Assembly (NCBI RefSeq): GCF_004364345.1 | Contig: NZ_SOCA01000008.1 | Coordinates: 1 to 64,000, forward strand | Direction of reading: 5' to 3' | Source: Prosthecobacter fusiformis | GTDB lineage: Bacteria; Verrucomicrobiota; Verrucomicrobiia; Verrucomicrobiales; Verrucomicrobiaceae | DNA length: 64,000 nt | Shown here: positions 3,956 to 6,511 of the stretch, piece after piece | Position numbering within the stretch: position 1 is the stretch's first letter | Layout of the letters: every line of letters starts with the position of its first letter | The notes under the pieces: generated by a model | The model's database searches: none | What the model was told of the DNA's origin: nothing | Seen by the model: only the letters and a program-made list of their open reading frames with translations | Made by a program: the position numbers and the translations under genes

Positions 3956-4969
3956 ATGAAAGCCATCAGCTTCCACCAATCCCTGCCCTGCCAAGATCCT
4001 GAAAGCCTCGTCGATGTGACCCTCGCTGAACCTGTTCCGGGGCCTCGTGATCTGTTCGTGGAAGTGCGGGCCATCTCGGTGAATCCGGTGGATACCAAAA
4101 TCCGTGGTGGCGGCGGACCCGTGAGCCCTGGCCAGGCACTGAAAATCCTGGGTTGGGACGCCGCCGGGATCGTCAAAGCCGTGGGGGATGAAGTGACGCT
4201 TTTTGCCCCTGGGGATGAGGTCTATTATGCAGGTGACGTGGACCGCCCAGGCTCCTATGCAGAGCTGCAATGCGTGGATGAAAGACTGGTCGGTAAAAAG
4301 CCAAAAACGCTGAGCTTTGCGGAAGCTGCCGCACTGCCGCTCACCACCATCACCGCCTGGGAAATGATGTTTGATCGCATGCGCATCAGCGCCACGGAGC
4401 CGGGCGCCATCCTCATCGTCGGCGGGGCAGGCGGAGTCGGCTCCATCGCCATCCAGCTAGCCAGACAGCTCACCGCTTTAACCGTCATCGCCACCGCTTC
4501 ACGCCCAGAGACTCAGGCCTGGTGCCTGCAGATGGGTGCCCATCATGTGATTGATCATGGCCAGCCACTGGCCGCCCAGATCAAAGCCCTGGTGCCGGAT
4601 GGACTGACCCATGTGCTGGCGCTGACGAAAACGGAAGATCACTACGATGAAATCATCGAAGCCATGGCCCCGCAGAGCGCCATCGCCCTCATCGAAAATC
4701 CGGCCCGGCCTCTGGAACTGACAAAGCTCAAGGCCAAGAGCATCTCCCTGCACTGGGAGTTCATGTTCACCCGCGCCCGTTATCAGACGCCGGATATGGG
4801 CAAGCAGGGAGAGCTTCTCATCGAAGTGTCACGCTTGGCGGATGCAGGCCAGATCCAGACCACTTTAAAAACGGACCTCAGCCCGATCAATGCCGCGCAA
4901 TTACGCCAGGCCCATGCGCTTATCGAAAGTGGCCGTAGCATTGGCAAGGTGGTGTTGGCGGGCTTTTAA
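3956..4969 (+). CDS. Quinone-oxidoreductase-like MDR protein ('zinc-binding ADH family' subfamily)
   Basis: 337 residues, full length for the family. The N-terminal GroES-like domain starts 'MKAISFHQSLP' and has 'EVRAISVNPVDTKIR'. The NAD(P)-binding Rossmann motif is 'ILIVGGAGGVGSIAIQLA'. The opening closely resembles the medium-chain reductase subfamily called 'zinc-binding alcohol dehydrogenase family protein' in databases. The catalytic zinc Cys/His set is not evident, so it is probably a zinc-free NADPH:quinone or enone reductase. It may share a transcript with the NTF2-like gene upstream. Confidence 0.9.
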   Translation: MKAISFHQSLPCQDPESLVDVTLAEPVPGPRDLFVEVRAISVNPVDTKIRGGGGPVSPGQALKILGWDAAGIVKAVGDEVTLFAPGDEVYYAGDVDRPGSYAELQCVDERLVGKKPKTLSFAEAAALPLTTITAWEMMFDRMRISATEPGAILIVGGAGGVGSIAIQLARQLTALTVIATASRPETQAWCLQMGAHHVIDHGQPLAAQIKALVPDGLTHVLALTKTEDHYDEIIEAMAPQSAIALIENPARPLELTKLKAKSISLHWEFMFTRARYQTPDMGKQGELLIEVSRLADAGQIQTTLKTDLSPINAAQLRQAHALIESGRSIGKVVLAGF

Positions 4970-5029
4970 ACCTGACTGATTCACCACCGCTGCCTTCCTG
5001 CAAATCGCAAGTCTAACCAGCGGATTTGA

Positions 5030-5052
5030 TTGCAAAACGCAGCTGTTTGCAA
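5030..5052. promoter_or_regulatory. Inverted repeat, possible activator site
   Basis: TTGCAAA (5030-5036) and TTTGCAA (5046-5052) form a perfect 7-bp inverted repeat with a 9-bp spacer. Its centre is about 105 bp upstream of the start predicted for the sigma-54-like promoter at 5119, a usual distance for an enhancer-binding protein site. The activator is unknown. No such regulator is encoded in the window. Confidence 0.35.
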
Positions 5053-5118
5053 CCCTGCCAGACTCAGATGAAATTCGCAAGAATCTCACGCTGAACATGT
5101 TACGCCAATCGCTCTCCT

Positions 5119-5136
5119 TTGGCACTGTCTATGCAC
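5119..5136 (+). promoter_or_regulatory. Sigma-54-like promoter in an intergenic region
   Basis: The sequence TTGGCACTGTCTATGCAC has the GG (5121-5122) and GC (5133-5134) 10 nt apart, with a perfect TTGGCAC -24 box. The -12 box is ATGC rather than TTGC. Transcription would begin near 5146, just before two hairpins and a micro-ORF. No conventional gene follows on this strand. Confidence 0.5.
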
Positions 5137-5152
5137 TAATTAGCAATTACTG

Positions 5153-5211
5153 GTCGCCCCCTTAGTTTGATTCGCTGTCCGTGAGAGCAAGAGCAAACGG
5201 GGGCAAGCGAC
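5153..5211 (+). ncRNA. Predicted structured leader, stem-loop 1
   Basis: Three nested helices: GTCG (5153-5156) with CGAC (5208-5211), CCCCC (5157-5161) with GGGGG (5199-5203), and GTTTG (5165-5169) with CAAAC (5194-5198). They are separated by a TTA bulge and a CAAG bulge. Fourteen base pairs in register are unlikely by chance. A T-run (5222-5225 region) follows. I do not recognise a known riboswitch class. Confidence 0.4.
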
Positions 5212-5233
5212 TGGTGCAAATTTTTAGACTTTC

Positions 5234-5310
5234 GTCGCTCCGGGCCTGTCGGAGTGGTTTGATGGATTCGGGAGATCTTTCATAACCACTCCGCAGGCCG
5301 GAACGGCGAC
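5234..5310 (+). ncRNA. Predicted structured leader, large hairpin 2 (or REP-like palindrome)
   Basis: The arms 5234-5259 and 5284-5310 are nearly perfect reverse complements with a 24-nt loop. The stem ends in GGAGTGGTT paired with AACCACTCC and contains GGCCTG paired with CAGGCC plus one or two mismatches. It lies 31 bp upstream of the micro-ORF at 5342. It could be part of a structured 5' leader or a stand-alone palindromic repeat. Confidence 0.45.
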
Positions 5311-5341
5311 CAACTGCGACACTTCTCCAGTTTTCCTGACC

Positions 5342-5419
5342 ATGATTTTTGACCTCGTCCTCATCATCGCCTTATCAGGTGCCTTCGGCTTCACCGCAGC
5401 TTATACGCTGACACCTTGA
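5342..5419 (+). CDS. Possible 25-residue membrane peptide (KdpF-like?)
   Basis: ATG at 5342 to TGA at 5419. The peptide begins MIFDLVLIIAL and ends AAYTLTP; it is almost entirely hydrophobic and would form one transmembrane helix. Its size, 'MIFD' opening and 'Y-x-L-x-P' ending resemble KdpF, the small subunit that stabilises the Kdp potassium ATPase. No kdpA follows, however: repeats and a convergent gene come next. It may be a stranded remnant, a free-standing small membrane protein, or chance. There is no clear ribosome site. The promoter and hairpins upstream are the main reason to list it. Confidence 0.3.
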   Translation: MIFDLVLIIALSGAFGFTAAYTLTP

Positions 5420-5437
5420 GCGGTCGTGCAGATGAAG

Positions 5438-5706
5438 CGATGGATGTTTGACGCTCGACTTAGCCGCAGAGGGGCGGAGGAGCAGAGAGGGCTAATTTTT
5501 TGTTAGGCACGGAGGTTAAAAAGCCCCCCTCAAGCATGCAGGCAGGAGTGCCCGCATCACTTTCTGGCTCCACGCTACGAATGGCCAATTGATGAGTATT
5601 CTTCCTTCATCTCTCTGCCTGCTCTGCCCCTTGGCCTCTTTGCGGTGAATCGATCGATGTTTAATGCCCGCCTTACCCGCAGAGGGGCGGAGGAGCAGAG
5701 AGGGCC
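5438..5706. repeat. Interspersed repeat family, two direct copies plus an inverted relative
   Basis: A 55-bp unit occurs at 5438-5492 and 5651-5705. The two copies share CGAT..GATGTTT at the left and an identical 28-bp core around GCAGAGGGGCGGAGGAGC (cores about 5464-5491 and 5677-5704). Between them, 5613-5648 carries a diverged copy in the opposite direction (CTCTCTGCC.. to ..TTTGCGG), so 5613-5702 can fold as an imperfect hairpin. The right copy ends 12 bp short of the stop codon of the esterase gene at 5717. It resembles a REP/BIME-type intergenic family. Confidence 0.7.
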
Positions 5707-5716
5707 AAGCTGTCTA

Positions 5717-6511
5717 TTATGGTGCAGCTTTCGTGTGCGCTTTGAAGAACTTCACGATGATTGGCGAGGTGTCCTTGCGGAATTCATGCCCTCCCGGATG
5801 CAAGGCGGTGACGACTGGATTTCCCCGAGTGGATGGGTAAATGGTGCACCGGTCATCCGCCTCCCAGGTCTGCCCGGCAGCGCATTCATTCAGACGTTTC
5901 AGCACTTCGATCGTCGCCTTCTGCCAGGTGAACTTCACTAGCGGATCATTCTCCCCCGCGATGTGCATGACCGGTTTTGGCTTGAGCAGTGACATCACTT
6001 TGGGTGCTGCCGAGGCTGAAGGAGCCACGGCAGCGAATACATCGCCACGCGTCCCCCAGAGCAGGTAGGTGAAGCCGCCCCCGTTGGAATGCCCCGTCGA
6101 ATAAATGCGCCGCTCATCCACCTTCAAATCCGCCTTCAGACTGGCTAAAACGGCATCGAAGAATTTTAGATCGCGGTCTTCCATCGCCCCTGGTCCAGAC
6201 TGCCAGCCGGGCTTTTTCCCTTGAGGATCTGTCAATTGCCCCGGCGTATTCAGCCCCTGCATGTAAACCACCACCGCCTCCGGCCATAGGGACGGGAAAG
6301 GAAACATCCGGGAAGCGTTTCGCATGTTTCCGCCATGGCCATGAAAAGCAAAGATCAAGGGGGAGGGTTCCCTCAATGCCTGCGGCGGGACATAGAGCAG
6401 CGCCTCACGATTGACTTCATCCACCATCCAGGTTCTGGACTGCAAAGACTCGGCTGCATGGAGGCTGGCAGCGGCCGTTAATAGAATGAGAAAGGAAAAT
6501 ACCCGGTTCAT
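5717..6511 (-). CDS. Secreted PHB-depolymerase-like esterase (LpqC type)
   Basis: 264 residues from the ATG at 6511, beginning with a signal peptide (MNRVFSFLILLTAAASLHA). An alpha/beta hydrolase with 'LIFAFHGHGGN' as oxyanion region, nucleophile Ser in 'STGHSNGGGF', an Asp in 'GENDPLV' and a His in 'HPGGHEF'. This matches the LpqC/polyhydroxybutyrate depolymerase-like esterases, including the feruloyl-esterase relatives. The substrate is probably a polymer-bound ester, but this is inferred. An in-frame start at 6553 adds 14 residues before the signal peptide and is less likely. Its 3' end abuts the repeat at 5651-5705. Confidence 0.88.
   Translation of the reverse strand: MNRVFSFLILLTAAASLHAAESLQSRTWMVDEVNREALLYVPPQALREPSPLIFAFHGHGGNMRNASRMFPFPSLWPEAVVVYMQGLNTPGQLTDPQGKKPGWQSGPGAMEDRDLKFFDAVLASLKADLKVDERRIYSTGHSNGGGFTYLLWGTRGDVFAAVAPSASAAPKVMSLLKPKPVMHIAGENDPLVKFTWQKATIEVLKRLNECAAGQTWEADDRCTIYPSTRGNPVVTALHPGGHEFRKDTSPIIVKFFKAHTKAAP

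Follow-up and report, generated by a model that had tools for sequence, protein, structure and literature searches.

A sigma-54-type promoter, a conserved two-hairpin RNA and a 25-codon membrane-peptide ORF in one bacterial genus: a candidate dual-function RNA

We analysed a 64,000-nucleotide stretch of Prosthecobacter fusiformis DNA (contig NZ_SOCA01000008.1, positions 1 to 64,000; hereafter the window) at an intergenic locus located between an upstream alcohol dehydrogenase gene and a downstream depolymerase-like esterase gene. No kdpABC operon follows, as an earlier reading of the sequence alone (the sequence-only reading) had stated. The four elements of that reading, an inverted repeat, a promoter, hairpins and an ORF, were confirmed in their order, and the complete array consists of two activator-type sites, a sigma-54-type promoter, a two-hairpin leader and a 25-codon ORF:

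4998 to 5010, plus strand: distal activator-type site CTGCAAATCGCAA, with 8 of 10 matches to TTGCANNNTGCAA
5030 to 5042, plus strand: proximal activator-type site TTGCAAAACGCAG, within the inverted repeat of the sequence-only reading
5120 to 5135, plus strand: putative sigma-54 promoter TGGCACTGTCTATGCA, with GGCAY-N6-TGCA kept in six species
5140 to 5313, plus strand: conserved two-hairpin RNA, matched by a held-out covariance model, with double changes in its pairs
5149 to 5215, plus strand: hairpin 1, with apical loop CCGUG at 5179-5183 and covarying outer and inner stems
5234 to 5310, plus strand: hairpin 2, with apical loop CGGGAG at 5269-5274 and a single-base bulge in the lower stem, present in six species
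5342 to 5419, plus strand: 25-codon ORF for a predicted single-span membrane micro-protein MIFDLVLIIALSGAFGFTAAYTLTP, supported by orthologues and dN/dS

The unit occurs once in the window's genome, and a search of 48 genomes of the genus showed the same array in six species (6 of 48 genomes), namely the window's genome (G000), G034, G057, G018, G196 and G019. Hairpin 1 was found in five of the six, and the ORF was lost in one. The flanking dehydrogenase and esterase genes are shared with G034 and G019, and a sulfatase gene flanks the unit on one side in G057 and G018. Since the arrangement, from the activator sites through the folded RNA, is kept in six species, we regard it as a real working unit and no leftover. 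Peptide patterns searched against genome and viral contig collections, from which near relatives may be omitted, gave no confirmed relative outside the genus. When the hairpin-2 model was run on 387 genomes of the order, all matches outside the genus were weak and fell in apparently coding stretches that lacked the loop motif. Model matches in G031 and G007 were rejected because they lacked the loop motif, and one in G015 (E = 2.5e-5) because it was a dispersed 'CAGAGGGGCAGAG' palindrome different from the unit RNA. The window itself has a dispersed, palindromic intergenic repeat (CCGCAGAGGGGCGGAGGAGCAGAGAGGGC) at 5455-5510 and again at 5605-5715; in the model search, hairpin 2 is mimicked by a repeat of similar kind in G015 (L076).

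The promoter, proposed earlier as TTGGCAC-N10-GC, was found as TGGCAC-N6-TGCA, with the -24 GG at 5121-5122, a spacing of N10 and the -12 GC at 5133-5134. Exact matches to this pattern numbered 23 in the genome, this one included, versus 10 for the reversed pattern, so the promoter alone is weak evidence; it gains weight because it is conserved in five other species. We infer that the unit is transcribed by sigma-54, and the start would be expected near 5145-5146.

In each of the six species the best matches to TTGCA-N3-TGCAA were two sites upstream of the promoter GG, one at -91 to -93 and the other at -123 to -125, with an identical spacing of 32 bp between them. The aligned site scores summed over species were 49 for the proximal and 47 for the distal site, against a maximum of 37 in 300 shuffle sets, a comparison that is somewhat favourable because the TTGCANNNTGCAA consensus was picked after viewing these sequences; we consider the 32-bp spacing in six species to be the stronger argument. 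The sites were weakest in G018, where the distal one is a degenerate GTGCAATTCACCG. The inverted repeat described earlier at 5030-5052 does contain an activator-type site, but it is better read as part of a pair of 13-bp sites, at 4998-5010 and 5030-5042. In both the window's genome and G057, rpoN has a sigma-54-type promoter preceded by similar sites (TTGC-N5-GCAA-like sites at L115, G000:C5:131419-131521, and at L125, G057:C9), which suggests that rpoN is autoregulated by the same or a related activator. Shared control with the ammonium transporters was rejected, since their sigma-54-type promoters lack TTGCA-N3-TGCAA sites, and for the same reason the activator of the unit probably differs from the ammonium transporter regulator.

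The 25-codon membrane-peptide ORF of the sequence-only reading was present at its predicted place, and its product, with one hydrophobic span, zero positive charge and an uncharged C-terminus (...TLTP), ranked near the top for hydrophobicity: only 3 of the 467 ATG-initiated ORFs of 20-35 codons in the window were equally hydrophobic. DNA and protein searches showed orthologues in G034 (MFFDLALIVFLSGAFGLTAAFTLTP), G057 (MIFDLALIVALSGVFGITAAYTLTP) and G018 (MILDLTCIVVLSTVFGVTAAYTLTP), and a copy cut by the contig end in G196 (MILDFVLIVFLAGA...). All complete copies are exactly 25 codons long. The dN/dS of the peptide was about 0.08-0.23 for the pairs where it could be computed, with changes concentrated at third codon positions, while the neighbouring dehydrogenase gave a dS of 1.1-1.9 between these species, near synonymous saturation, so that sequence free of constraint would by now be nearly random. 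The peptide is, on these comparisons, under purifying selection; the ORF is probably translated and its product probably located in the membrane. A search of Pfam and NCBIfam with the peptide matched no model.

The peptide had been compared to KdpF, and the likeness held for size and hydrophobicity, KdpF (PF09604) also being 25-30 residues long with one membrane span, but it went no further. The PF09604 profile did not match the peptide, and the genome has its own intact kdpF (MEPLITGVIALALLAYLLVAMLRPEKF) directly before kdpA on contig C4. The genome's own KdpF ends in RPEKF, whereas the unit's peptide lacks that end and is located away from kdpABC. Size and hydrophobicity alone point to an orphan KdpF or to the decaying rest of a kdp operon, and this reading is very improbable given the separate kdpF-kdpA, the missing profile match and a unit that is conserved and under selection. 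The suggestion that the unit might be a remnant was likewise not upheld.

The 5140-5345 segment folded at -86.5 kcal/mol, against -63.8 +/- 4.8 kcal/mol for its shuffles (z = -4.75, with 0 of 200 shuffles as good), and this value, together with covariation in relatives, bore out the two strong hairpins proposed earlier. A covariance model of both hairpins, built on four other species and not on the window, found 5140-5313 with an E-value of 3.3e-12 when the window was searched and 3.0e-10 when the genome was. A five-species alignment was fitted to this model and so leans towards the structure. In it, double changes were seen in 25 of 45 base pairs, 82.7% of the cells were paired (70.4% when shuffled and at most 42.5% when slid) and the covariation score was 0.511 (0.298 when shuffled and at most 0.180 when slid); a fresh structure prediction on this model-fitted alignment again gave 25 doubly changed pairs. 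For hairpin 2 in four species, 12 of 22 pairs were doubly changed and the score was 0.568, versus 0.300 after shuffling and no more than 0.250 after sliding. While the stems varied, the two apical loops, CCGUG and CGGGAG, remained constant; where hairpin 1 is present (five species), they were located 58-60 and 143-155 nt, respectively, past the promoter GG. Rfam at the gathering score matched no family in 5000-5720, and relaxed thresholds gave chance matches only, mostly to microRNA families. A kissing interaction between CCG of loop 1 and CGG of loop 2 is possible, but both loops are invariant and loop 2 is unchanged in G018, which lacks hairpin 1.

The strongest rival to a dual function is that of a leader acting in cis only, in which the hairpins, as a riboswitch-like element, a protein-binding element or a ribosome standby site, would control the translation or stability of the micro-protein mRNA and the peptide would be the sole output. 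The distance from the expected start to the ATG was 195-203 nt in the four species with both hairpin 1 and an ORF start to measure to (the window, G034, G057 and G196), a constancy that fits such a leader. Apart from the GGGAG in the hairpin-2 loop, no Shine-Dalgarno-like sequence precedes the ORF in any species, and in four of the six species this loop could form a pseudoknot with a CUCC shortly before the ORF. However, the pairing amounts to 4-6 bp and is missing from G196 and G019, occlusion of the start codon region is inconsistent (unpaired fraction 0.36-0.73), and G019, a single case, keeps the sites, the promoter and both hairpins without the ORF. We consider a purely cis-acting leader possible, though rather doubtful.

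The deletion in G019 extends from hairpin 2 to the end of the downstream gene and includes the ORF and the place of a terminator-like hairpin, which is strong in its close relative G034 (z = -5.7). Between these two genomes three double changes kept the pairs, and the loss of the ORF in this single case may be recent, which limits its weight as a sign of lasting selection on the RNA. The RNA of G019 is also the observation on which a regulatory RNA with an incidental ORF could be built; this is quite unlikely, as the peptide is under purifying selection in four species and complete ORF copies are all of one length. G018 keeps the promoter, hairpin 2 and the ORF, and a second small membrane ORF (MKTTYLPREPSASLPGRLAWILIWVLGVPLPTLIILYLLLGR, 42 residues), with a sigma-54 site directly upstream, replaces hairpin 1. 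The family of its product is present elsewhere in the genus: a widespread 40-odd-residue membrane protein family (MKTx...GKIGWVLLWLVGIPVPILLILFLLRGCT) was seen in several genomes of the genus (L095-L106), with one member in the G018 unit, and the member tested had no Pfam or NCBIfam match.

We favour a dual-function RNA, serving as a putative regulatory RNA and as the mRNA of the micro-protein, because G019 lost the ORF but kept the promoter and hairpins and because hairpin 1 was replaced in G018; our confidence in this reading is about even. It is also supported by the conservation of the sites, promoter and hairpin 2 in six species, by the leader length where hairpin 1 and the ORF are kept, by covariation beyond the controls, the held-out model match, the constant loops and the selection on the peptide, and by the similar sites before the rpoN promoter in two species. 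Against it stand the restriction of the matches to 6 of the 48 genus genomes and the finding of no clear terminator at the unit in the window. Conservation, covariation and purifying selection also support the earlier proposals of an undescribed unit and of a micro-protein encoded together with a regulated small RNA or a riboswitch-like leader; the stems were checked for covariation and the ORF for conservation in close relatives, and both were found.

Under the dual-function reading, the locus would be transcribed as a free-standing unit. Its sigma-54 promoter would be opened by a dedicated bacterial enhancer-binding protein bound to the two conserved sites, which are separated by three helical turns and precede the -24 element by about 92 and 124 bp. 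The RNA would start near 5145 with a leader of about 197 nt, folded into the two covarying hairpins and followed by the 25-residue single-span membrane peptide, whose translation the purifying selection suggests. The constant loops CCGUG and CGGGAG could be where a target RNA or an RNA-binding protein attaches. The peptide could act on a partner in the membrane, in response to the stress or nutrient signal that also governs the RNA. A more specific proposal, which we make tentatively and with less confidence than dual function itself, is that of a new family of dual-function RNAs controlled by sigma-54 and an enhancer-binding protein, in which a trans-acting two-hairpin domain is joined to a new 25-residue membrane peptide in an undescribed stress or nutrient response of the genus. 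If true, the RNA and the micro-protein would each represent a new family, governed by a control region with clear limits; the variants that occur in nature (loss of the ORF, replacement of hairpin 1) would allow the role of each part to be separated, and the fixed activator sites would offer a handle on their enhancer-binding protein.

Type I toxins are small, with a single hydrophobic span and a structured leader, and sigma-54 control with two activator sites is unusual among them. The unit resembles TisB and DinQ in its tiny hydrophobic peptide behind a structured 5' leader, and could encode a toxin-like peptide silenced by that leader or by an antisense RNA. We consider this unlikely, given the sigma-54-type control, the uncharged C-terminus, in which it differs from TisB/DinQ, and the single copy per genome; a scan of both strands of 4950-5760 for sigma-70-like promoters showed none, and hence none of this type in antisense. 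DinQ (PMC3567139) is one member of this class.

In systems of the SgrS/SgrT type, one transcript combines regulatory RNA with the coding sequence of a very short peptide that acts at the membrane. The unit likewise pairs an RNA part with a tiny membrane peptide, but the SgrS ORF is 5' and its base-pairing part 3', whereas the order is the opposite here, with the structured part 5' of the ORF; there is no sequence relation, and the unit is under putative sigma-54 control. GlrR sites read TGTC-N10-GACA, and GlmY is not known to encode a peptide. GlmY is described in PMC6075780 as a sigma-54-dependent small RNA of Enterobacteriaceae activated by QseF (GlrR) via upstream activating sequences, and the unit shares with it a structured RNA, a sigma-54-type promoter and putative enhancer-binding protein sites upstream. 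The unit RNA differs in having no Rfam match to GlmY or to any family, and in its activator sites. A search of the open-licence literature found no paper on sigma-54-controlled RNAs in this bacterial group.

Other sigma-54-type loci were seen in these genomes. At L056 and L057 (G000:C3), such promoters precede genes for a membrane protein of the transglycosylase-associated (YmgE/GlsB-like) type and for an Hsp20-like protein, the latter so called by eye (its first 70 residues had no Pfam match); the two loci share a different upstream repeat, GTTGATA-N2-CAAC, and may form a sigma-54 stress regulon. At L118, L123 and L126 (G028, G031 and G006), the gene for the same 434-residue protein, possibly a phosphofructokinase as judged by eye (no Pfam match to its first 80 residues), follows a TTGCAACCYGCAT site and a promoter of the TGGCACTT type. 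At L116 and L121 (G005 and G143), TTGC-N5-GCAA sites and a sigma-54-type promoter precede an amidase-like gene whose first 80 residues match Pfam Amidase below the cut-off, and a link to nitrogen is possible for these loci.
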